Assembly (NCBI GenBank): GCA_017619375.1
Contig: JAFZSL010000055.1
Coordinates: 1 to 46,615 of the forward strand
Direction of reading: 5' to 3'
From: Prevotella sp.
GTDB taxonomy: Bacteria; Bacteroidota; Bacteroidia; Bacteroidales; Bacteroidaceae
DNA: 46,615 nucleotides
A model generated the notes under the pieces. The model did not search any database and had not been told where the DNA came from. It saw nothing but the letters and a program-made list of their open reading frames with translations. This document shows, one piece after another, positions 1,109 through 43,371 of this stretch (its first letter is position 1; the number at the start of each line of letters is the position of its first letter). Made by a program: the position numbers and the translations under genes.

Positions 1109-2149
1109 ATGAGTAAGAAAAAGAAGAAGAACACCTGGCTGAAGGTGGTGGCAGGCATCGTGGTCCTGTTGGGTTTGGCAATTCTCTGTCCGGCCTATTA
1201 TTTCCTGAAGACTTCGATGCTGACAAAGGAGGAGACACAATACATCTACGTGGACCGCGATGACAACATCGACTCGGTCTATGTCAAACTGGACAGCATC
1301 ACGACCCCCCAAGCGATGAAAGGTTTCAAGTTTGTTGCCAATTACAAGGACCTTGCATCCAGCCTCAAGCGCGGGCGTTATGCCGTGGACACCAAAACCA
1401 GCGCATGGGACTTCTTCAACACCCTCAAACGAGGAGAGCAGACACCGCTCAACGTTCCCATCCCCTCGGCGAGGACGATGGACAAGTTGGCTGTCGCCGT
1501 GTCGAAGAAACTGGAACTCGACAGCCTCGAACTGCTTAGCGCCTTGACGGACTCCACCGTCTGCGCCCACTATGGGTTCACATTGCAGACCATCCCCGCC
1601 ATGTTCATCCCCGACTCCTACAACATGTACTGGACGGTATCCGTAAATGAATTCCTGGACAGGATGAAAAAGGAGTTCGACAACTATTGGAACGACGAGC
1701 GCAAGTCGAAAGCGAAGGCCTTAGGCCTCTCACCCGTGGAGGTGAGCACGCTTGCCAGCATCGTGACGGAAGAGACACGCGCCACCAAGGAGAAGCCCAC
1801 CGTGGCAGGTCTCTACCTCAACCGCCTGAAGAAAGGCATGCTGCTGCAGTCGGACCCGACAGTGAAGTTCGCCATGCAGGACTTCGGTGTGCGCCGCATC
1901 CTCAACCGCATGCTTACCATCGACAACCGCTACAACACGTACAAGTATGCGGGACTGCCTCCCGGACCCATCCGCATCCCATTGAAAGAGGACCTGGAAG
2001 CCGTGCTCAACCCCGAGAAGCATGACTACATCTACATGTGCGCCAAAGAGGATTTTAGCGGCACCCACAACTATGCTCGCACAGAAGCAGAGCACCGTGC
2101 CAACGCTGCAAAATACCACAAAGCCCTCAACGAAAGGGGGATTAGGTAA
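1109..2149 (+). CDS. mltG: Endolytic peptidoglycan transglycosylase MltG (YceG-like)
   Basis: MltG cuts nascent glycan strands at the outer face of the inner membrane and is thought to set glycan chain length. The 346-aa product has a lysine-rich N terminus, one membrane segment (about residues 12-34) and a periplasmic domain. The family's catalytic region is clear at residues 215-255: LASIVTEET, then VAGLYLNRL and LQSDPTVKF; the glutamate before Thr (E222) is the likely catalytic residue. Near the C terminus AGLPPGPI and EDFSGTHNYA are also typical. The length is normal for the family. The start follows at a sensible distance from a -7-like box, and the stop codon directly abuts a copy of the dispersed repeat. 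It stands alone as a transcription unit. Confidence 0.93.
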   Translation: MSKKKKKNTWLKVVAGIVVLLGLAILCPAYYFLKTSMLTKEETQYIYVDRDDNIDSVYVKLDSITTPQAMKGFKFVANYKDLASSLKRGRYAVDTKTSAWDFFNTLKRGEQTPLNVPIPSARTMDKLAVAVSKKLELDSLELLSALTDSTVCAHYGFTLQTIPAMFIPDSYNMYWTVSVNEFLDRMKKEFDNYWNDERKSKAKALGLSPVEVSTLASIVTEETRATKEKPTVAGLYLNRLKKGMLLQSDPTVKFAMQDFGVRRILNRMLTIDNRYNTYKYAGLPPGPIRIPLKEDLEAVLNPEKHDYIYMCAKEDFSGTHNYARTEAEHRANAAKYHKALNERGIR

Positions 2150-2246
2150 ATTGAAGATTGACCTACGGTCGAAGTTGCTCACGCTCGGCAGACTCCAAGC
2201 ACGCTTGGTCTGCTCTCGCTTAATCGCAACTTTGAAAATTGAAGAA
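2150..2246. repeat. Dispersed composite repeat, copy B
   Basis: Directly after the mltG stop codon come two ATTGAAR-type heptamers (2151-2164), then the palindromic core 2171-2233 (outer arms gaagttgc / gcaactt, inner arms gcagac / gtctgc and ccaagc / gcttgg), then gaaaattgaag. This is the best-preserved copy with outer arms. It sits where a terminator for mltG would be expected, and the hairpin may do that job. Confidence 0.8.
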
Positions 2247-2277
2247 ACGTATTTATGTTATAGAGCATAAAAAAATA

Positions 2278-2309
2278 TTTGTCAGAAAGACGAAAAAATC
2301 GTACTTTTG
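2278..2309 (+). promoter_or_regulatory. Strong Bacteroidetes promoter without a downstream ORF
   Basis: TTTG (2278-2281), exactly 20 bases, then TACTTTTG (2302-2309). This is an essentially perfect match to TTTG-N19/20-TAnnTTTG. No start codon follows before the hairpin at 2370-2395, so the promoter seems to drive a short non-coding transcript. Confidence 0.75.
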
Positions 2310-2314
2310 CAACC

Positions 2315-2409
2315 GTTATCCTGAATACAATCTTTTTACCTTAAAAAAAACTAATACCTTAAGATAAAGCCGTCCCCTCTGAGAAGAGGGGGCGGTTTGC
2401 TGTTTTATA
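2315..2409 (+). ncRNA. Candidate free-standing small RNA (about 95 nt)
   Basis: The unit is bounded by a near-consensus promoter and a GC-rich hairpin with a broken T run. It contains no ATG and no frame of useful length. Inside are two direct copies of taccttaa (about 2337 and 2356), 11-12 bases apart. The start is inferred as 6-7 bases after the -7 box and the end as the T run. The alternatives are the orphan leader of a deleted gene, or a long leader reading antisense into trmO. I do not recognise a named RNA family. Confidence 0.45.
2370..2409 (+). terminator. Intrinsic terminator of the candidate small RNA
   Basis: An 11-bp stem (ccgtcccctct / agagggggcgg, one G-T pair) has a 4-base loop and is followed by tttgctgtttt. 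The T run is interrupted, so termination may be incomplete. Confidence 0.6.
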
Positions 2410-2410
2410 A

Positions 2411-2486
2411 GAGGTGATAGGAGGTCTTAGGAGATAATGGGAGGGAATAAAAGACTTTAGGAGGGAATAGGAAATTTTAGGAAGGT
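2411..2486. repeat. Degenerate purine-rich tandem repeat
   Basis: Loose repetitions of 'taggagg(g)aata' and 'ttttagga' fill the space between the terminator and the trmO stop codon. No ORF is present. Similar low-order repeats of different sequence occur at 5011, 11901, 17161 and 23361. Confidence 0.5.
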
Positions 2487-2487
2487 T

Positions 2488-3165
2488 TCATGATAGTTTG
2501 GTGATTTCCACGACGAGCAGTTTTCGTCCTTCCACGCGGAAGCGGATGTCGACATTGCGGAAAGGCATGCCGTAGACCCTCGCCGGATCATCGTGAAAAT
2601 GCGGGCGTGGGTCCAAGGAGAGAATTTGTGTCACCACTTCCCGGTCATTTTCGGTGAGGCAGTCCCCCACCCCTTCAGCGAAGGCCACATCAAGGCATTC
2701 CCATTCACGCTGGTCGACAAAGCCACTTCGCACTCCCACATGGCTGTCGGCATACTCCACATAGGGTTTGATGTCAAAGATGGGCGTTCCATCCATCAAG
2801 TCAGCTCCAGCCACCTGTATGACAGGGCCGCGAGAATCGTTGAGGTCGATGCTCACAATGCGCACGGAGGAGAGTCCGATGGGATTGGGCCGATAAGGGG
2901 AACGTGTGGCAAACACCCCCATCGACTTGTTTCCTCCAAGCAACGGCGGTCTCACCGTGGCCGCATGCACCTCATGGCTGTTGGCAGAAAAATCCCAAAG
3001 GAGCCAGATATAGTCGAATCCCTCCAATCCCCTCACATAGTCGGGGTTCCGGTATTCAGGCTGGAAAACAATTTCTCCTACAAGCCCCTCGACAAGACCA
3101 CTCTGACGGGGAATGCCAAACTTTGATGTCAATGGCGAATGAAATGTGGCAATGGGTGTCATCAT
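2488..3165 (-). CDS. trmO: tRNA (N6-threonylcarbamoyladenosine37-N6)-methyltransferase TrmO
   Basis: TrmO (YaeB/TsaA family) uses S-adenosylmethionine to methylate t6A at position 37 of ANN-decoding tRNAs, mainly tRNA-Thr. The 225-aa product begins with the family's 'IATFHSPLTSKFGIPRQSG' segment and carries the conserved core GVFATRSPYRPNPIGLS at about residues 83-99, followed by DLMDGTPIFDIKPY. The length is normal for the longer TrmO form. Two adjacent ATGs (3165 and 3162) are possible starts. It diverges from the ABC ATPase gene with about 70 bases between the two starts, so the two promoters must be close or overlap. Confidence 0.92.
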   Translation of the reverse strand: MMTPIATFHSPLTSKFGIPRQSGLVEGLVGEIVFQPEYRNPDYVRGLEGFDYIWLLWDFSANSHEVHAATVRPPLLGGNKSMGVFATRSPYRPNPIGLSSVRIVSIDLNDSRGPVIQVAGADLMDGTPIFDIKPYVEYADSHVGVRSGFVDQREWECLDVAFAEGVGDCLTENDREVVTQILSLDPRPHFHDDPARVYGMPFRNVDIRFRVEGRKLLVVEITKLS

Positions 3166-3236
3166 CGTTAATTCGTGTTAATTGTCGCCATAGGCGAAAT
3201 ATTATTGTTACCTTCGCAGAACATATCAGCATCAAG

Positions 3237-4022
3237 ATGGAAACAGTAAGACTGGAAAACCTCTCCATAGGCTATGCCTCACGCAAGAACCGCAAGGTGG
3301 TGGCTACAGGCATCAACGCCTCTCTTCACAGCGCGTGCATGACCTGCCTCATCGGTCCCAACGGTGTGGGCAAGTCGACCCTTCTCCGCACACTCTCAGC
3401 CTTCCAACCCCCATTGGGCGGCAAGGTTTTCATCCACGACAGCGACTTGTCCTCGCTCAACGAGAAGCAACTCGCCCGTTTGATCGGCGTGGTGCTCACC
3501 GTCCGTCCCGACGTGCGCAACATGACGGTGGAGGAGATGGTGGCAATGGGTCGCAGCCCTTACACTGGCTTTTGGGGTACGCTTGGCAGCGAAGACCATG
3601 CCATAGTGGACGAGGCCATCGCCATGGTTGGCATCGAGGCCCTTTCCCAACGGATGATACAATCGCTTAGCGATGGCGAGCGCCAAAAAGTGATGATTGC
3701 CAAAGCCCTGGCCCAGCAGACCCCCGTCATCTTCCTTGACGAGCCCACAGCCTTCCTCGACTATCCGAGCAAGGTGGAGATGATGCAGACGCTGCACCAC
3801 CTCAGCCGCACCGCCGACAAGACCATCTTCCTCTCCACACACGACCTGGAACTGGCGCTGCAGATAGCCGACACCGTATGGCTGATGACAGAGGGCAAAG
3901 GCATCAACATCGGTACACCGCGACAACTCGCCGACTCTGGCGTGCTCAGTTCCTTCATCGAGCAGAAAGGCATCGTCTTCGACAAGGAACGGCTCTCTGT
4001 CACCGTCATGCCTCGCTGCTAA
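3237..4022 (+). CDS. FecE/BtuD-type ABC transporter ATP-binding protein
   Basis: This 261-aa ATPase is of the iron-siderophore/cobalamin/haemin uptake type. Walker A is at residues 40-48 (GPNGVGKST), then the signature LSDGERQK, Walker B VIFLDEPTAFLDYP and the switch histidine in STHDLELAL. The frame is open upstream to 2904, but that part overlaps trmO and is not family-like; METVRLENLSIGYA is the proper start. No permease or binding protein is next to it, so its membrane partner must be encoded elsewhere; the substrate cannot be named. The last 17 bases overlap the end of tatC on the other strand. Confidence 0.88.
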   Translation: METVRLENLSIGYASRKNRKVVATGINASLHSACMTCLIGPNGVGKSTLLRTLSAFQPPLGGKVFIHDSDLSSLNEKQLARLIGVVLTVRPDVRNMTVEEMVAMGRSPYTGFWGTLGSEDHAIVDEAIAMVGIEALSQRMIQSLSDGERQKVMIAKALAQQTPVIFLDEPTAFLDYPSKVEMMQTLHHLSRTADKTIFLSTHDLELALQIADTVWLMTEGKGINIGTPRQLADSGVLSSFIEQKGIVFDKERLSVTVMPRC

Positions 4023-35950: not shown

Positions 35951-38900
35951 ATGAAAAAAACTACATGGATCATCCTTGGGTTCCTACTCTCCGTCATCGG
36001 AATACAGGCCCAAGAGTTCAGCGTGACCTATGCCGTTCAGGAGGGTGACACCCATCCCTCCGGAGACGTTGTTTCCGTGGCCTCCAACGGCACGGAAGTG
36101 GCGACGCTCACCTTTGGTGAGGCAGACGGCACAGAGACATTCCAAGCAGGAGCTGCCGACAGTCATATCGACGGCTTCGTAGCCTACACTCCTGGAAACG
36201 GCGTCAACGGCAACAAGCCCGGCGGCACCTTCTACACCATCAAACCGGCATACGACGGCAAGGTGACGATAGGTGTCGTGCTCAACGCCAACAAGAATTT
36301 CTTCATCGAAGAGGACGGGACTCCCCTGGAGGCCTTCAACGGCATCACCGTGGATGAGAAATACTACGGCACTTTCGACTTCGACGTCAAGGGTGGCAGT
36401 AGTTACAAGTTCTACTGCGCTGGTTCGAAACTCGGCTTCTACGGTTTCACCTACACCGGCGTGATGGGCGGTTCGCAACCCGAGCCCATCTTCATCGAGA
36501 CCGACCTGACCAGCCAGTTCGGCTCACTCACCGAGTACACCAACTGGGTGGGAGCCAGCGGCTATGCCACTTGGGCGGCACCCCAGGTGACCACCAATGA
36601 TGGCAAGACCGTCTATATGTGCGAGAGGTATGACACCAACTGCGAAACCATCGGCGACGTGTTCTACCAGAACCTCACCGGGCTGACTCCAGGCACCTAC
36701 AAGATTGAACTTTACGGTTCGGCAGCCTTCACATTCGGGCGTGGCTTCACTTCCGAAGCCTTTGCAGAGGGTGACACTCCCGAAGACCCGATTACCGAGA
36801 ACACCGGCATCAAGCTTTATGCCCAAACCAGCGAAGGCACCGTGGCCCAGGAGATTGCCGCCTACAAGGCGACCTCGTTCTCCGAAGTGTCCACAGCCAC
36901 CCTCGATGGTGTGGTAGTGGGCGAGGACGGTGCCATGAAACTCGGCATGGACAAGTCCACGAAGTACACCAACTGGCACATCGTTCAGTTGAAGGGTGTC
37001 ACCGCAAAAGTGAATGCCTCCGAACTCTACGCCTCTTACGTAGCCCAGGCACAAGCTCTTGTCGCCGAGCCGATGAACGGTGCGGTACTCGCTCAACTGC
37101 AAGGTGCGATGGTGGATGACAGCGGCTTCACCACCGCCGAGGAATACGAGGCAGCCATCAGCAACCTCGCTTCCGCCATCCAAGTGGCCAACACTTCCAT
37201 CAATGTTTACAAGGAAGTGAAGGCAGCCCTTGACGAATACGCCGCCAAGGCAGCCAACCTCGACGCCTCCGGACAATCGGCCTACGACGTATCTGCCATC
37301 CAGAAGGCCTATGACGACCGCACGCTTGAAAACAACCTCGTCGTGGCCGACATCAAGGCAGCCTACATCGCAGCCGTGAAAGCCCAGACCACTCCAGGCT
37401 CCGACTTCACCGATGCCGGCGGCAAGTTGCAAAGTGACTGGATTGGCGCCACCGGAATCTACCAAGGTGCTTATCCCGAGCGCTTCGGCGAGGAAATGCC
37501 CGCCGACACCATCATGCACCAGACCATCAGCGGCCTGAAGGCAGGCACCTACAAGGTGGAACTCTACGCCGTGGCCAGCCAGGCTTGGAACAGTGCCGCC
37601 ATAGGCAACGACATCACCGTGGCCTACGCCAACGACGGCATCTACCCGCTTGAGGTCATCGCCCAAGTGGCTTGCGACCCCACAGCATCCGTTGCCACGA
37701 TGGAAGCCACCGTGGGCAGCGACGGCTTGCTCGACATGGGCATGCGCAACCTCACCAACGGCGGCAACTGGTTTGTCATCCAGTTGAAGTCCATCACCCT
37801 CGAGAGCCTGAAGGCAGAGGTGGGAGCGCCCCTCGTGCTCAACATCGAGAGCGGAAAGGACATCTATTCCGAAGTGACAACAGCCCTTGAAGGCAACCCC
37901 AACCCCGAGAGCATTGAGATCAACCTCGCTGCAGGCGGTGAATACACTGTCAGCGGCACCATCGAGACTGCAGCCCCGCTCTTGCTCCGTGGCGACGACA
38001 TGGCCACCATCGATGCCTCGGCGCTCACCGCTCCGATGTTTGCCCTCCGGACGACGTTGTATGACAGTTACCTCAACCCGGCCAACAACTTCTACGCCAT
38101 CGGCGACATCAAATTCATGAACATCAAGGTGAAGGGCCTCACCCAGCAATTGTTCTACGGCAACAAGATGCGGGCATACATCCCCAACTTCTCCGTGGAG
38201 AACTGCATCATCGAGGTCGCCGGCGGCAGCAAGACCACCATCGACTTCAACGGCGGCGGCGTGGTGGAGAACTTGTCCATCAGAAAGTCGACCATCTACG
38301 GCAACCCGCAGCACACAGGACAGCTCTATAGTTCACAAAGCGGCCAGAAGGTCACAGAGGTGTCAGAAGACAAGACCCAGACCATCTCCATCCTCAACTC
38401 CACCCTCTACAACCTCGCCTATGGCAAGAACGTGATGACCCACAGGCAATCCAACCAGAAGTGGCTCACTTACGAGTTGAAATACAGCATCATCCTCGAC
38501 TGCGGCAAGGAAGGACAATTCGTCAAGGGTCTCAATGGCGGCCAAGGTGGCGCAAATCCCGTTTGGAGAATAGAGGACAACGCTTTCCAGCGCATTGTTG
38601 ACGGTGTCATCACCGACATGAGCGCCAACGAATCCACTGGCGACGACGAAGAACCTGTCAACTTCAATGTTGATGGCGCCCTGGTCTTCACAGGGGACTT
38701 TGCTTCCGGTGACTTCACCCTTGGCGACTGCAAGCAAAAGGAAATGAACATCGGCGACCCACGCTGGTTGACAGGTGAAGCAAGCAGCGACATCGTGCTG
38801 ACTCTTGAAAGCGGCAAGGACATCACCACCGAACTGGCAGCAGCCCTCGCAGTCACACCGGCTCCCGAAAGCATCACCATCAACCTTGCAGCAGGCGGTG

Positions 38901-40852
38901 AATACACCGTCAGCGGAACCCTTGAGACGGCAGCTCCACTGACCATCACCGGCGACGAAGAGGACATCGCCACCATCGATGCCTCCTCACTCACCAGCCC
39001 GATGACGGCCATCAGCCTCACACCGTATGAAAGCTCTCTCGACGCCAACAACAACTTCTACAACATCGGCGATATCGAATTCAGCAACCTGAAGGTGAAA
39101 GGCCTCACCCAACCGCTCATCTACGGCAACAAGGTGCGCGCCTTCATCCCGAGGCTAAGTGTTGACAACTGCGTTATCGAGATTGCCGGAGGCAGCAAGT
39201 CGACGTTCGACTTCAACGGCGGTGGAGTTGTAGGCATTCTTGACGTGCTCAACTCCACCATCTACGCCAACCCGCAACACACAGGCCAACTCTACAGCTC
39301 ACAGAGCGGACAGAAGGCCACCGAAGTAAGTGAAGACCTAGTTCAGACCATCTCTCTGCAAAGCAGCACCTTCTACAACATCTCTTACGGAAAGAATGTG
39401 ATGACCCACCGCCAGTCCAACCAGAAATGGCTCAAATACGTGGTATCGAGCTGCCTCGTTGTCGACTGTGGCAAGGACGGACAGTTCGTCAAGGGTCTCA
39501 ACGGCGGCCAAGGCGGCGCGAATCCCATCTGGGAAATCGAATCCAACTCCTTCCAGCGCATCGTTGACGGCGTATTCACCGACATCAGCGCCAAGGAGGA
39601 AACCGGCGATGCCGACGAGCCTGTCTCCGAAAACATTGAAGGCGTAGTGGTCTTCACTGGCGACTATGCCAACGGTGACTTCACGTTGGGCTACTGCCCG
39701 CAGGACATCTACTGGGTAGGCGACCCACGCTGGTTCAGCGGTGATTTGTACTATGCTTTCGAAGCCAACGAGTGGATTGCCGGCGACCCAGGACGCATCA
39801 GTCCCGACCAGGTGAGCGTCAACGAGGAACAGAACACCATCACCGTCAGCCAAACCGGCCAGAACAACGTCAACCTGCTCTTCCGCTCTGAAAATGTATA
39901 CACAGTGCCCGCTGACTTCCGCTACTTCGTCATCAGCGCCACAGGTCTCTCCACCAACGACGGCGACAGCTACCTCTGGTGGCTGAACAACACCAACAAC
40001 GGCGGCCAGCACAAGCCCACCGCCATCTTCGAGCTTGACGGCGAGACCGTCTTCGCATGGGATGTCAACCTCCTCCCCATCGGAGGTGATTTAGGAAAGG
40101 TCACCACGGAGTTCAAGGACGATGGTGGTTGGAGCACCACGTTCGGCATGACTTTGGCCGACCCGTCGGTTCCTGCCGTCATCTCCTACATCGGCTTCAC
40201 CGACCAAATCCAGCAACCTACCGAGGAGGCAGAGTATGCATGGGACGCCAACCTGTGGGTTGCCGGCGACCCGGGCCGCATCTCACCCGACAAGGTAGTT
40301 GTTGACGAAGCAGCAAACACCATCACCGTCAGCCAGACCGGTGACAACAACGTTGCATTGCTTTACAAGACCGACAAGATTCTCTATGTGAACGACGCCA
40401 AGTACTTCGTCATCCAAGGCAAGGGTCTCTCCATCGCCGACACGAAGTCCTACCTCTGGTGGCTGAACAACACCAACAATGGCACCCAGGTAGCGCCCAA
40501 CATCGCAGTGAAGGACGCCGACGGCACCGTCACCCTCGTATGGACCATCGCCGACACCGGCCTTGGAGCCTCCTTCGAGAGCGGCAAGACCTACCTCGTA
40601 GGCACTGCCGACTGGAACACCACCTTCGGTCTCACCCTTGACGACGAGAACGTGCCGGCTGTCATCAGCTACATCGGATACGACGGCATCGACTCCGAAA
40701 TCGTGAAGCATGCCGAGGAACTCTCCGGCATCACCACCGTGCGCATGGACGTCGTCAACGGCGACATCTACGACCTCATGGGCCGCAAGGTGACCACTCC
40801 GGTGAAAGGCGGCATCTACATCCAGAATGGAAAGAAGTATGTCGTGAAGTAA
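35951..40852 (+). CDS. 1633-aa secreted multidomain protein with tandem beta-helix-like repeats
   Basis: A signal peptide (ending GIQAQ) is followed by a beta-rich domain (to about 170), a carbohydrate-binding-like sandwich (about 175-355), helical linkers of the FIVAR type (about 356-475) and a second similar sandwich (about 480-625). Residues 628-947 and 948-1267 are a tandem duplication with turns typical of right-handed beta-helix proteins (INLAAGGEYTVSG, GNPQHTGQLYSSQSGQK, FVKGLNGGQGGANP). Then come two copies of the module shared with the GH127 enzyme (1268-1425 and 1429-1583) and a tail GDIYDLMGRKVTTPVKGGIY. No catalytic residues are recognised. It may bind or present a glycan at the cell surface; DUF4957/DUF5123-like families come to mind for the helix part. 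Confidence 0.8.
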   Translation: MKKTTWIILGFLLSVIGIQAQEFSVTYAVQEGDTHPSGDVVSVASNGTEVATLTFGEADGTETFQAGAADSHIDGFVAYTPGNGVNGNKPGGTFYTIKPAYDGKVTIGVVLNANKNFFIEEDGTPLEAFNGITVDEKYYGTFDFDVKGGSSYKFYCAGSKLGFYGFTYTGVMGGSQPEPIFIETDLTSQFGSLTEYTNWVGASGYATWAAPQVTTNDGKTVYMCERYDTNCETIGDVFYQNLTGLTPGTYKIELYGSAAFTFGRGFTSEAFAEGDTPEDPITENTGIKLYAQTSEGTVAQEIAAYKATSFSEVSTATLDGVVVGEDGAMKLGMDKSTKYTNWHIVQLKGVTAKVNASELYASYVAQAQALVAEPMNGAVLAQLQGAMVDDSGFTTAEEYEAAISNLASAIQVANTSINVYKEVKAALDEYAAKAANLDASGQSAYDVSAIQKAYDDRTLENNLVVADIKAAYIAAVKAQTTPGSDFTDAGGKLQSDWIGATGIYQGAYPERFGEEMPADTIMHQTISGLKAGTYKVELYAVASQAWNSAAIGNDITVAYANDGIYPLEVIAQVACDPTASVATMEATVGSDGLLDMGMRNLTNGGNWFVIQLKSITLESLKAEVGAPLVLNIESGKDIYSEVTTALEGNPNPESIEINLAAGGEYTVSGTIETAAPLLLRGDDMATIDASALTAPMFALRTTLYDSYLNPANNFYAIGDIKFMNIKVKGLTQQLFYGNKMRAYIPNFSVENCIIEVAGGSKTTIDFNGGGVVENLSIRKSTIYGNPQHTGQLYSSQSGQKVTEVSEDKTQTISILNSTLYNLAYGKNVMTHRQSNQKWLTYELKYSIILDCGKEGQFVKGLNGGQGGANPVWRIEDNAFQRIVDGVITDMSANESTGDDEEPVNFNVDGALVFTGDFASGDFTLGDCKQKEMNIGDPRWLTGEASSDIVLTLESGKDITTELAAALAVTPAPESITINLAAGGEYTVSGTLETAAPLTITGDEEDIATIDASSLTSPMTAISLTPYESSLDANNNFYNIGDIEFSNLKVKGLTQPLIYGNKVRAFIPRLSVDNCVIEIAGGSKSTFDFNGGGVVGILDVLNSTIYANPQHTGQLYSSQSGQKATEVSEDLVQTISLQSSTFYNISYGKNVMTHRQSNQKWLKYVVSSCLVVDCGKDGQFVKGLNGGQGGANPIWEIESNSFQRIVDGVFTDISAKEETGDADEPVSENIEGVVVFTGDYANGDFTLGYCPQDIYWVGDPRWFSGDLYYAFEANEWIAGDPGRISPDQVSVNEEQNTITVSQTGQNNVNLLFRSENVYTVPADFRYFVISATGLSTNDGDSYLWWLNNTNNGGQHKPTAIFELDGETVFAWDVNLLPIGGDLGKVTTEFKDDGGWSTTFGMTLADPSVPAVISYIGFTDQIQQPTEEAEYAWDANLWVAGDPGRISPDKVVVDEAANTITVSQTGDNNVALLYKTDKILYVNDAKYFVIQGKGLSIADTKSYLWWLNNTNNGTQVAPNIAVKDADGTVTLVWTIADTGLGASFESGKTYLVGTADWNTTFGLTLDDENVPAVISYIGYDGIDSEIVKHAEELSGITTVRMDVVNGDIYDLMGRKVTTPVKGGIYIQNGKKYVVK
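37832..39751 (+). repeat. Tandem 960-bp internal duplication in the large secreted protein
   Basis: Two 320-codon units (37832-38791 and 38792-39751) lie end to end in frame. Protein identity is high over motifs such as YSSQSGQK and NVMTHRQSNQKW, but the DNA has drifted at many third positions, so the duplication is not recent. Confidence 0.85.
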
Positions 40853-40877: not shown

Positions 40878-40912
40878 GTGGGGAAATGGCAGTGCCATTT
40901 CCCCACTTTTTC
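40878..40912 (+). terminator. Terminator of the large secreted protein gene
   Basis: A 13-bp stem (gtggggaaatggc / gccatttccccac) is followed by ttttt. Confidence 0.85.
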
Positions 40913-41016: not shown

Positions 41017-41838
41017 ATGCAGAAATACGCCGACTACATCGAGCAGATAGAAATCGACTCCCTATGGAGCGGCCGACGCCACATCATATGGAATCTCGAC
41101 CAACATGTCAACATCCTCAGCGGGACCAACGGACAAGGAAAGAGCACCATCATCAACAAGGTGGTCAAGGGTCTTGCCGCCGGAGGTGAATACCCCAGCC
41201 ACTTGCTCAAGGGCGTACACTTGAAAGTGTATCCCGCTGAAGCGAAATGGATCAGGTACGATGTCATCAGGTCTTTCGACCGCCCCTTGATGAATCTCGA
41301 CACCTTGGCGAAAATGGACATGAGCCTCGCCACGGAACTCGACTGGCAACTCTTCCAACTGCAAAGGAAATACCTGGACTACCAAGTGAACATCGGCAAC
41401 CGCATCATCGAGGTGCTTCAGAGCGGTGATCCTGATGCAGCACAAAAGGCGCAAGAAATCTCCGCCCCCAAGAAGCGTTTCCAAGACCTCATGGACGACC
41501 TCTTCTCAGACACGGGAAAGAAAATCGTGCGCACCGCCAATGAAATATTCTTCTCCCAAATCGGCGAGACCCTCGTCCCCTACCAACTCTCCAGTGGCGA
41601 GAAGCAGATGCTGGCCATCCTACTCACCGTCCTGATACAAGACAACAAGCCCGCCGTGCTCTTCATGGACGAACCGGAAGTCAGCCTCCACATCGAGTGG
41701 CAGAAACGTCTCATCGACATGGTGCTTGAACTGAACCCCAACGTCCAAATCATCCTCACCACCCACTCCCCGGCGGTGGTCATGAACGGATGGATTGACC
41801 ATGTGACCGAAGTTTCCGACATCACCGACAGTTTCTGA
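41017..41838 (+). CDS. ABC-type AAA ATPase (AAA15/OLD-like), partner of DUF4435 protein
   Basis: The 273-aa soluble protein has Walker A GTNGQGKST (36-44), an ABC-like signature LSSGEKQ (191-197), Walker B AVLFMDEPEVSLH (213-225) and a switch histidine in LTTHSP. This set, with the short insertion between Walker A and the signature, is that of AAA15/OLD-type ATPases such as AriA of the PARIS phage-defence system, although AriA is longer. The frame extends nine codons upstream, but MQKYADYIEQIEI is the natural start after the -7-like box. The DUF4435 gene begins 34 bases downstream, so the two are made together. Confidence 0.82.
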   Translation: MQKYADYIEQIEIDSLWSGRRHIIWNLDQHVNILSGTNGQGKSTIINKVVKGLAAGGEYPSHLLKGVHLKVYPAEAKWIRYDVIRSFDRPLMNLDTLAKMDMSLATELDWQLFQLQRKYLDYQVNIGNRIIEVLQSGDPDAAQKAQEISAPKKRFQDLMDDLFSDTGKKIVRTANEIFFSQIGETLVPYQLSSGEKQMLAILLTVLIQDNKPAVLFMDEPEVSLHIEWQKRLIDMVLELNPNVQIILTTHSPAVVMNGWIDHVTEVSDITDSF

Positions 41839-41872
41839 CCCTCATCAAGCATTCCCACGAATTCTCAGGAAA

Positions 41873-42919
41873 ATGCCCAAGCGCCTGACAGACAATCTCA
41901 ACTCCGACTATTTAAGCGCTGCCAACAAGTTGAAGCCGAAGACAGCGCGACGTCGCATCGTGGCTTATGTGGAAAGCTACGATGACATCTATTTCTGGCG
42001 CACCGTACTCAGCGAGTATGAGAACGACACCTTGTATTTCGAAGTGATGCTTCCTTCGAAGGTGAATCTGTCCAAAGGGAAGAAGCAAGTCCTAATGAAT
42101 CTCATCGGTGACAACATCGGTGAAGACATGATAGCATGCGTGGATGCCGACTACGATTTCCTGGTGCAGGGTGTGACGAAGACCTCCGAGAAGGTCATCC
42201 ACAACCCCTACGTCTTCCACACCTATGTCTATGCCATAGAAAACTACCAATGCTACGCCCCATCGCTTCACAACGTATGCGTCATGGCCACCCTCAACGA
42301 CCATATGATATTCAATTTCGAGGAATACCTGCGGCAATTCTCCCAAGCCATCTTCCCTCTCTTCGTATGGAGCATCTGGTATTATCGCTCACCGAAATAC
42401 ACAGAATTCTCCATCACCGATTTCAACAGGGTGATAGAGACGGGTCATTTCACGTTGGCAAAAGCCGCCGAAGGCATTGCCAACGTCCGGCACAAGGTGG
42501 GAAGGAAAATCATACAACTTCAAAGGGAGAATCCCGATGCCAAAGAGTCCTACCTCGCCTTGAAAGAGGAGTTGAAAGCGCTCGGTGTCACACCCGACAG
42601 CACATACCTCTACATCCAAGGGCACCATCTATACGACAACGTGGTGTCTCCCATGCTGGGCAAGGTGTGCGACAAGTTGCGGCGGGAGCGCGAGATGGAG
42701 ATTCACAACAAGGCGGTTCACAACACACAGATGCGCAACGAACTGTCGTGCTACGAGCACAGCATCGAGAGTGTCGCTGCCATGCTGAAGAAGAACACGG
42801 GATACGTCAAGTCGCAACCTTATGCCAAACTCAAGTCCGACTTGGAGCATTTCCTCTCCACGCTCAATCCCAAGGAGGAGACTCCTGCCGAAGAGCCAGA
42901 ACAGCCCACAAAAGAATAA
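41873..42919 (+). CDS. DUF4435 (TOPRIM-like) protein, AriB-like
   Basis: The 348-aa product has the TOPRIM-type acidic residues: E34 in VAYVESYDDIYFW and the D-x-D set D91-A-D93 in ACVDADYDFL, then a helical middle part and a Glu/Pro-rich end. DUF4435 proteins are the effector AriB in PARIS, where a TOPRIM nuclease is released when the ATPase senses phage anti-restriction proteins; the same domain also pairs with ATPases in other Bacteroidetes loci of unknown job. All acidic residues look intact. It is 34 bases after the ATPase and 4 bases before the next gene. Confidence 0.78.
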   Translation: MPKRLTDNLNSDYLSAANKLKPKTARRRIVAYVESYDDIYFWRTVLSEYENDTLYFEVMLPSKVNLSKGKKQVLMNLIGDNIGEDMIACVDADYDFLVQGVTKTSEKVIHNPYVFHTYVYAIENYQCYAPSLHNVCVMATLNDHMIFNFEEYLRQFSQAIFPLFVWSIWYYRSPKYTEFSITDFNRVIETGHFTLAKAAEGIANVRHKVGRKIIQLQRENPDAKESYLALKEELKALGVTPDSTYLYIQGHHLYDNVVSPMLGKVCDKLRREREMEIHNKAVHNTQMRNELSCYEHSIESVAAMLKKNTGYVKSQPYAKLKSDLEHFLSTLNPKEETPAEEPEQPTKE

Positions 42920-42923
42920 TGTT

Positions 42924-43310
42924 ATGGAAATGAAAATCACCTCCATAGAGACCGCACGATTGCTGCGCAAACACCGCTTCAACGAGCCTACCACCAGTTA
43001 TTATGATGTCGACGGCATCCTGCGCACCATTGGCGAAGGTGAAGCCACCTGTTGGAACAGCCCTGCTCATGACAAGAGCATACGCCACAAGGTATATGCC
43101 GCCCCCACGCTGGCTTTGGCTCAAAAATGGCTTCGTGAGAAGAAACATTACGACGTGCTTGTGGACCGCGACTATCTTTTCGGCAAGGTGGGAAAATACT
43201 TCGCCAAGATCATTCGTTTGAAAGACGGTGCCATCAGCGAGGCGATGCATTGCCGTAGTTACGAGAAAGCCTTGGAGCATGGCATCAAGAAAGCCCTGCG
43301 CACCATGTAA
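42924..43310 (+). CDS. Small Bacteroidales-type protein (128 aa), third gene of the ATPase-DUF4435 operon
   Basis: The product begins MEMKITSIETARLLRKH and contains APTLALAQKWLREKKHYDV and a C-terminal SYEKALEHGIKKALRTM. Strings of the type 'AQKWLRE...YEEALEAGIxEAL' are what I remember from short hypothetical proteins of Bacteroidales phages and conjugative elements; this is recollection, not a search. It has no signal peptide and no metal motif. It starts four bases after the DUF4435 stop, so it is probably translated with it, and a long hairpin closes the operon. The frame is open upstream within the DUF4435 gene, but that part is not used by the family. Confidence 0.7.
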   Translation: MEMKITSIETARLLRKHRFNEPTTSYYDVDGILRTIGEGEATCWNSPAHDKSIRHKVYAAPTLALAQKWLREKKHYDVLVDRDYLFGKVGKYFAKIIRLKDGAISEAMHCRSYEKALEHGIKKALRTM

Positions 43311-43329: not shown

Positions 43330-43371
43330 GCCAACGCCCCCGGAAGCAGTCATTCTTCCGGGGGCGTTGGC
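43330..43371. terminator. Hairpin between the DUF4435 operon and cysK
   Basis: A perfect 17-bp stem (gccaacgcccccggaag / cttccgggggcgttggc) with an 8-base loop. There is no real T run on either side, but the stem is very strong and is placed between convergent genes. Confidence 0.7.

Follow-up and report, generated by a model that had tools for sequence, protein, structure and literature searches.

A PARIS-type ATPase–DUF4435 gene pair as a probable core locus of the Bacteroidaceae

An ATPase–DUF4435 pair in a Prevotella contig

We analysed a 46,615-nt stretch of Prevotella sp. DNA (contig JAFZSL010000055.1, positions 1 to 46,615, assembly GCA_017619375.1; referred to below as the window) in which the gene for an ABC-type ATPase is followed by a gene for a DUF4435/TOPRIM protein and by a small third gene (Table 1). 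A sequence-only reading of this DNA had taken the three genes for a possible defence operon, a shortened relative of the phage anti-restriction-induced system (PARIS), in which the ATPase AriA is paired with the TOPRIM effector AriB. The three open reading frames are open where that reading placed them, with 34 bases between the ATPase and DUF4435 genes and 4 bases between the DUF4435 gene and the third gene. The motifs that it described are also present, namely Walker A GTNGQGKST (36-44), LSSGEKQ (191-197) and DEPEVSLH (218-225) in the ATPase and the TOPRIM-type acidic residues E34, D91 and D93 in the 348-aa protein.

Table 1. Coordinates of the pair and of adjoining features in the window
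Feature	Position	Strand	Basis
AriA-type ABC/AAA_21 ATPase, compact, 273 aa	41017..41838	+	Pfam, PADLOC, PDB sequence match, AlphaFold2 model with Foldseek
AriB-type DUF4435/TOPRIM protein, 348 aa; nuclease by homology	41873..42919	+	Pfam, PADLOC, conserved residues
Third gene (128 aa), added in one clade; member of a phage protein family	42924..43310	+	PHROGs, tblastn, synteny, dN/dS
Perfect 17-bp inverted repeat, 8-nt loop; lies where the third gene and cysK converge	43330..43371	.	Repeat search
Hairpin with T-rich tail, 3' of the gene for a 1633-aa protein, setting that gene apart from the pair	40878..40906	+	Terminator scan

The ATPase matched Pfam AAA_21 at 1.3e-21 (78.4 bits; cut-off 27) and AAA_15 at 7e-18 (65.8 bits), and matched AriA in a PADLOC profile search at 9.9e-57. 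Its best PADLOC match is an existing 253-position AriA model, so that the compact length is not a shortening special to this locus. The closest PDB sequence was AriA 8ux9_B (2.6e-13). When an AlphaFold2 model of the ATPase (predicted local distance difference test, pLDDT, 85.9) was compared with PDB structures using Foldseek, ranks 1-4 were taken by AriA 8v45 chains (E values of 2.3e-12 to 2.6e-11, TM-score by query 0.55-0.58), with PtuA chains close behind and mixed with further AriA chains, so that the predicted model has an AriA-like fold. The DUF4435 protein matched Pfam DUF4435 at 5.9e-60 (203 bits; cut-off 27) and PADLOC AriB at 2e-66. The PARIS detection rule, as it appears in the accessible part of PMC9122126, asks for AAA_15 at 32 or AAA_21 at 27 bits together with DUF4435 at 27, and the window pair scores above all three thresholds.

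We examined residue conservation in 84 orthologous pairs, obtained from 102 loci with both genes by dropping identical DUF4435 proteins (leaving 88) and then four distant copies. In the ATPase, G36, N38, G39, G41, K42, L191-E195, Q197, D218-E221 and H250 are invariant in 84/84, and the sole motif substitutions are S43T in five proteins, T44S in one and K196R in two. Residues 111-130, in the first helix of the middle helical arm, have low entropy and are among the best-conserved stretches of the protein. In the DUF4435 protein, E34, D38, D91, D93, D95, E123, G250 and H251 are kept in all 84, which includes the TOPRIM Glu/Asp residues retained in PARIS, and a degenerate or dead TOPRIM domain was rejected on this ground. 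The TOPRIM Glu and the D-x-D pair are also invariant in 12 divergent DUF4435 proteins, and a YVE-x-x-DD-x-x-FW signature together with D-x-D is common to the window-type protein and the AriB-type protein of a P2-like phage. A basic (K/R)GK(K/R) patch at 68-71 is nearly as well kept (K70 in 84/84; position 68 is K or R in all 84 and position 71 in 83). E. coli AriB grips the anticodon loop through K60 and K64, according to the accessible part of PMC12409363, and the spacing suggests that the patch may correspond to this region.

Distribution, descent and surroundings

The window's family is taken here as the Bacteroidaceae in the GTDB sense, since named relatives are Prevotella and the gene order recurs in Bacteroides. 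Within it, a protein search matched DUF4435 in 192 of the 199 genomes sampled and in 22/22 genera, with one match in 172 of the 192. At genus level a match was present in 35/36 genomes (window included) and an orthologue in 34/36; G012 has a distant copy only, and the single genome without a match is 56% complete. The family match of G064 is of a distant form (29% and 31% identity) outside the core clade. Among other families of the order, counted after removal of three listed members of the window's family, 38/195 genomes had a match, as did 11/293 genomes of a phylum-wide sample, with one match below the Pfam cut-off in each set. In one metagenome-assembled genome (RUG12087), two contigs (L147 and L169) each have a DUF4435 gene, at 63% and 60% identity, through either a second copy or contamination.

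Seven family genomes were without a match (G222, G148, G157, G173, G228, G103 and G198). In G222 the ATPase gene is kept at a contig end, so that the missing DUF4435 gene reflects an assembly edge. G148, G157, G173 and G228 belong to one genus, probably Bacteroides judging from gene order, and have genes for alpha-2-macroglobulin, DUF1573 and meaB in place; no remnant of the pair was found in their 14-kb regions. These genomes are near-complete (G157, G173 and G228 a single contig each, G148 about 40 contigs). Because the same genes follow in all four, the absence suggests one clade-wide loss. The pair seems dispensable on account of these four absences, which share one rearranged locus.

We compared trees of the pair and of rpoB for 29 genomes from 14 genera, 30 having been searched for rpoB and G165 dropped for its split gene. 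The joined pair tree has 19/26 splits in common with rpoB. Support of at least 95 is reached by 13 splits of the pair tree and 18 of the rpoB tree, and none of these conflict. The single-gene trees share 17/26 (DUF4435) and 12/26 (ATPase) splits with rpoB, again with no supported conflict. The pair tree is thus compatible with vertical descent. In a DUF4435 tree that placed 17 of the 37 loci offered from other families, the 23 core proteins group together with a bootstrap of 90, and the distant copies L062, L096, L099 and L100 fall outside this clade. Its closest outside branches are those of f107, another family of the order, and of the G064 copy, with joint support of 100; other distant copies lie further out. 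The ratio of nonsynonymous to synonymous substitution rates (dN/dS) of the pair was 0.02-0.08 in five comparisons, one with dS above 1, indicating purifying selection.

Mean identity to the window was 67% for the ATPase, 57% for the DUF4435 protein and 69% for Dxs across 10 genomes, and 76%, 58% and 80% for the ATPase, the DUF4435 protein and CysK across 6; in 6 other genomes TrkH averaged 49%, compared with 72% for the ATPase. By these sequence comparisons the ATPase is conserved at a level typical of housekeeping enzymes, whereas conservation of the DUF4435 protein is lower.

In 39/39 regions (window included; the distant copies L062 and L096 were set aside) the ATPase gene immediately precedes the DUF4435 gene and is read in the same direction. 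Recurrent neighbours in these regions are genes for a drug/metabolite transporter (DMT; 15), trkA (11), dxs (11), trkH (7), cysK (7) and a helicase (7), and L086 and L087 have the order helicase, DMT, pair, trkA, dxs. The trkA, cysK and helicase labels were assigned by inspection, and the DMT label agrees with an annotated record. Gene lengths had raised the suspicion of tRNA-modification neighbours, a candidate that was discarded because the two recurrent neighbours read as the DMT transporter and a superfamily-1 helicase instead. In the window the neighbours are dxs, trkA, trkH, and genes for mannose-6-phosphate isomerase, a 1633-aa DUF4957/DUF5123 protein, cysK and a Cys/Met-metabolism enzyme, in agreement with the earlier placement of the pair among ordinary genes. 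The gene for the 1633-aa protein, with both DUF5123 and DUF4957 matches, occupies 35951-40852 upstream of the pair. The hairpin that follows it is a weak call when taken alone, with 6 terminator-like sites seen compared with a mean of 2.7 (standard deviation 1.7) in shuffled sequences. The 17-bp hairpin that was said to close the unit was confirmed as a perfect inverted repeat (arms at 43330-43346 and 43355-43371); it is absent from the output of the T-tailed terminator scan.

A phage-borne core copy was rejected, because a search of 50,697 phage records left the DUF4435 protein unmatched at 1e-5. The ATPase gave one distant match in these records, 55% over 65 residues, in a P2-like phage, and a seeded scan of viral_contigs (A1), which is a limited test, returned 12 pattern matches of which none is a relative. 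In the P2-like phage record L296, baseplate and tail-completion genes flank an AriA/AriB-type pair (1487-3590) that is annotated as an ATPase and a hypothetical protein. Three plasmid-labelled records matched the pair. L265 and L266 (Bacteroides and Phocaeicola) were typed as non-mobilizable and keep chromosomal gene order, on which grounds a plasmid-borne core copy was also rejected; these two look like mislabelled pieces of chromosome. Of these two records, H2 has meaB, DUF1573 and a DMT transporter gene beside the pair, and H1 the DMT transporter gene (92% to the L076 copy). The third record is a distant pair on an Enterobacter plasmid. The genome G024 holds, in addition to its core pair, a second and distant ATPase–DUF4435 pair (L062, 8823-10676) among duplicated sugar-epimerase-like genes, labelled by inspection.

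Elsewhere in the order, several families have the DUF4435 stretch inside an open frame of about 520-545 aa. Long DUF4435 frames of about 520-575 aa were seen at L236, L239, L240, L242-L248, L250, L251, L255 and L260. Two of these, L240 and L246, were checked by Pfam and are AAA_21–DUF4435 fusions beside ordinary genes, with UbiA downstream of L240 (and also of L251) and a peptidyl-arginine-deiminase-like gene downstream of L246. L240 matched the PADLOC AriAB fusion model PDLC02982 at 2.2e-121. PARIS-type genes may be core in more than one family of the order, since DUF4435 was found in 7/7 genomes of the family of L246, in open frames of 522-545 aa.

Candidate functions and rival explanations

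In PARIS, a hexamer of AriA holds AriB, which is freed or activated when anti-restriction proteins are sensed and then, as a dimer, cleaves tRNA-Lys along with a small number of other tRNAs (PMC11455837; accessible part of PMC12409363). Surveys already count pairs of the present kind as PARIS in gut Bacteroidales, as far as the accessible parts of PMC10924106 and PMC12135933 show; we found no paper on a core, vertically inherited ATPase–DUF4435 pair in Bacteroides or Prevotella in a search that left most subscription journals outside. The window pair resembles two-gene PARIS in having an AAA_15/AAA_21 ATPase directly before a DUF4435 TOPRIM protein, in the AriA-like fold of the ATPase model, in its kept catalytic residues and in its best PADLOC matches, AriA and AriB. 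It differs in the length of the ATPase, 273 aa compared with 464 aa for the E. coli AriA chain, and in being core and apparently vertical rather than phage- or satellite-borne, and it is known here from its sequence.

The fused AriAB form (PDLC02982) likewise joins AAA_21 to DUF4435, in about 520 aa, and lies beside ordinary genes, but it is one gene instead of two and is too divergent to be placed in the DUF4435 tree. Septu PtuAB is similar in the fold and motifs of its PtuA ATPase, which is also found with retrons and whose chains are mixed with and follow those of AriA in the Foldseek matches. The partner of PtuA is the HNH nuclease PtuB, whereas that of the window ATPase is a DUF4435 protein, and no HNH family was among the Pfam matches of the three window proteins. 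OLD (overcoming lysogenization defect) nucleases functionally join an ABC-type ATPase to a TOPRIM nuclease in one polypeptide, unlike the window, where two separate open reading frames are found and the TOPRIM domain is of the DUF4435 variant.

Probably the two genes form a PARIS-type unit, now fixed as a core locus of the Bacteroidaceae, that encodes an ATPase-gated RNase. The observations on which this rests are the architecture, the catalytic motifs, the AriA-like ATPase model, the near-universal presence among the sampled genomes, purifying selection and a tree that fits vertical descent. By analogy with PARIS biochemistry, the ATPase would form a cage that keeps the TOPRIM protein inactive, and a signal sensed through the ATPase and its helical arm would release it. 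The freed TOPRIM protein would then act as a metal-dependent endoribonuclease that cuts tRNA or a similar RNA, bringing translation to a stop. The signal is probably a constant one, such as a conserved hallmark of infection or a stress in the host, rather than a fast-changing phage protein, because the ATPase and the core of its arm are conserved and the pair is core with no trace of mobility. Between an anti-phage and a physiological role we lean slightly toward defence; core status is compatible with defence, and a universal guard could become fixed.

Several results weigh against this interpretation. Near-fixation is unusual for a phage-defence system, and none of the 10 scanned window proteins had a defence-model match at 1e-5. 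A second or third DUF4435 match occurs in 20 of the 192 family genomes, and the DUF4435 protein (57%) is less conserved than Dxs (69%) or CysK (80%). The flanks of the arm (91-110 and 131-150) are variable, and the ATPases of L024, L091 and L092 have a shortened or a diverged or replaced arm, with motifs and partner gene kept. Finally, the DUF4435 model (best pLDDT 83.9, five models spanning 66.5-83.9) had no PDB fold match at E ≤ 0.001 in a library that includes AriA–AriB complex entries, among which we did not see an AriB chain listed. The assignment to AriB is thus supported by profile and residues and not by a fold match. There was also no believable PDB sequence match for the DUF4435 queries P0002, A1, P0004 and A4 or for the phage AriB-type protein, and E. 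coli AriB could not be aligned directly.

The same evidence admits a domesticated housekeeping or stress module, in which the pair would no longer act against phages and would cut RNA in normal physiology, through tRNA-based growth control or RNA maturation of the RNase M5 kind. Its presence in 192/199 family genomes, the lack of supported conflict with rpoB, an ATPase as conserved as Dxs with a conserved arm core, ordinary neighbours and a DUF4435 protein unmatched in phage records and in the seeded viral_contigs scan are all consistent with such a role, and the AriB active site is described in the accessible part of PMC12409363 as resembling that of the TOPRIM enzyme RNase M5. However, the pair seems dispensable, being absent without remnant from the searched regions of the near-complete G157, G173, G228 and G148, no partner gene was seen to travel with it, and its neighbours change between genera. 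We rate this alternative at somewhat less than even. The sequence-only reading had held that presence at one site in nearly all relatives with no sign of gain and loss, combined with TOPRIM residues that are not conserved, would favour housekeeping. Half of this holds: nearly all relatives do have the pair, yet its TOPRIM residues show full conservation and its exact gene neighbourhood drifts; a core yet catalytically intact pair is an outcome that reading had not listed.

For the third protein, searches of Pfam, PADLOC and NCBIfam gave nothing at E ≤ 1. In PHROGs it matched phrog_12005 at 5.6e-9, besides a chance-level match at 0.19, and all 10 members of the third-gene set A3 match phrog_12005. 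By tblastn, relatives occur at 30-35% identity in four phage records, three of them from Bacteroides phages, which we take to be crAss-like; 105 pattern matches in viral_contigs included none that was confirmed. The gene lies directly 3' of the pair, overlapping it or 3-16 bases away, in the ten nearest of 80 named loci (L112-L121, mostly from rumen Prevotella). No copy was seen at the remaining 70 loci, of which L154 is cut off immediately 3' of the pair, or in 37/39 of the regions examined. A homologue is present in 11/150 genus genomes, and the five closest copies (61-100% identity, window included) adjoin the DUF4435 gene. Six genus genomes have distant homologues only (30-43%), which in G032 and G018 are on another contig than the pair. 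With dN/dS of 0.04-0.16 in five comparisons, the gene is under purifying selection.

A role as a general component of the system was therefore rejected, since the gene was found next to the pair in 10/80 loci only, within one rumen Prevotella clade. It is a later, selected add-on of that clade and not a required component, and is best read as a gene of phage type that was acquired in a single event behind the pair and then kept. Its position in the ten nearest loci and the five close genus copies, its selection and its phage protein family would also suit a functional third component within the clade, for immunity, as a trigger or as a regulator. Set against its absence from the other loci and regions and the separate contigs of the distant homologues in G032 and G018, we regard this as rather doubtful.

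Of the earlier claim of a PARIS-like defence operon, the AriA/AriB type stands, by profile, catalytic residues and, for the ATPase only, fold; no sign of mobility was found. An ordinary PARIS cassette that happens to occupy this locus would share the PARIS profiles, and divergent DUF4435 genes are patchy in the family and phylum (L062 in G024, G012; 11/293) and two plasmid-labelled Phocaeicola and Bacteroides records hold the pair, but we rejected it as highly improbable on near-fixation (192/199 instead of patchy presence), a tree without supported conflict with rpoB, a core clade apart from the distant copies, ordinary neighbours in place of a defence-island or mobile context, and the non-mobilizable, chromosome-like state of both records.

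Implications for the Bacteroidaceae

A PARIS-like pair, known elsewhere as a mobile defence against viruses, appears here to be inherited across nearly the whole of a gut and rumen bacterial family. Retention of a predicted gated and potentially lethal RNase by almost all species in the family calls for a constant benefit. If most PARIS calls in the family represent one inherited locus, such calls do not measure the gain of defence. More tentatively, and with a little less than even confidence, we propose that a PARIS-type gated TOPRIM ribonuclease was domesticated in the ancestor of the Bacteroidaceae as a core, signal-gated, tRNA-cleaving module of growth control or innate immunity, with the fused form fixed in parallel in sister families. 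If this parallel fixation is true, PARIS in the order would be an ancestral cellular system of which the mobile copies are only a part.

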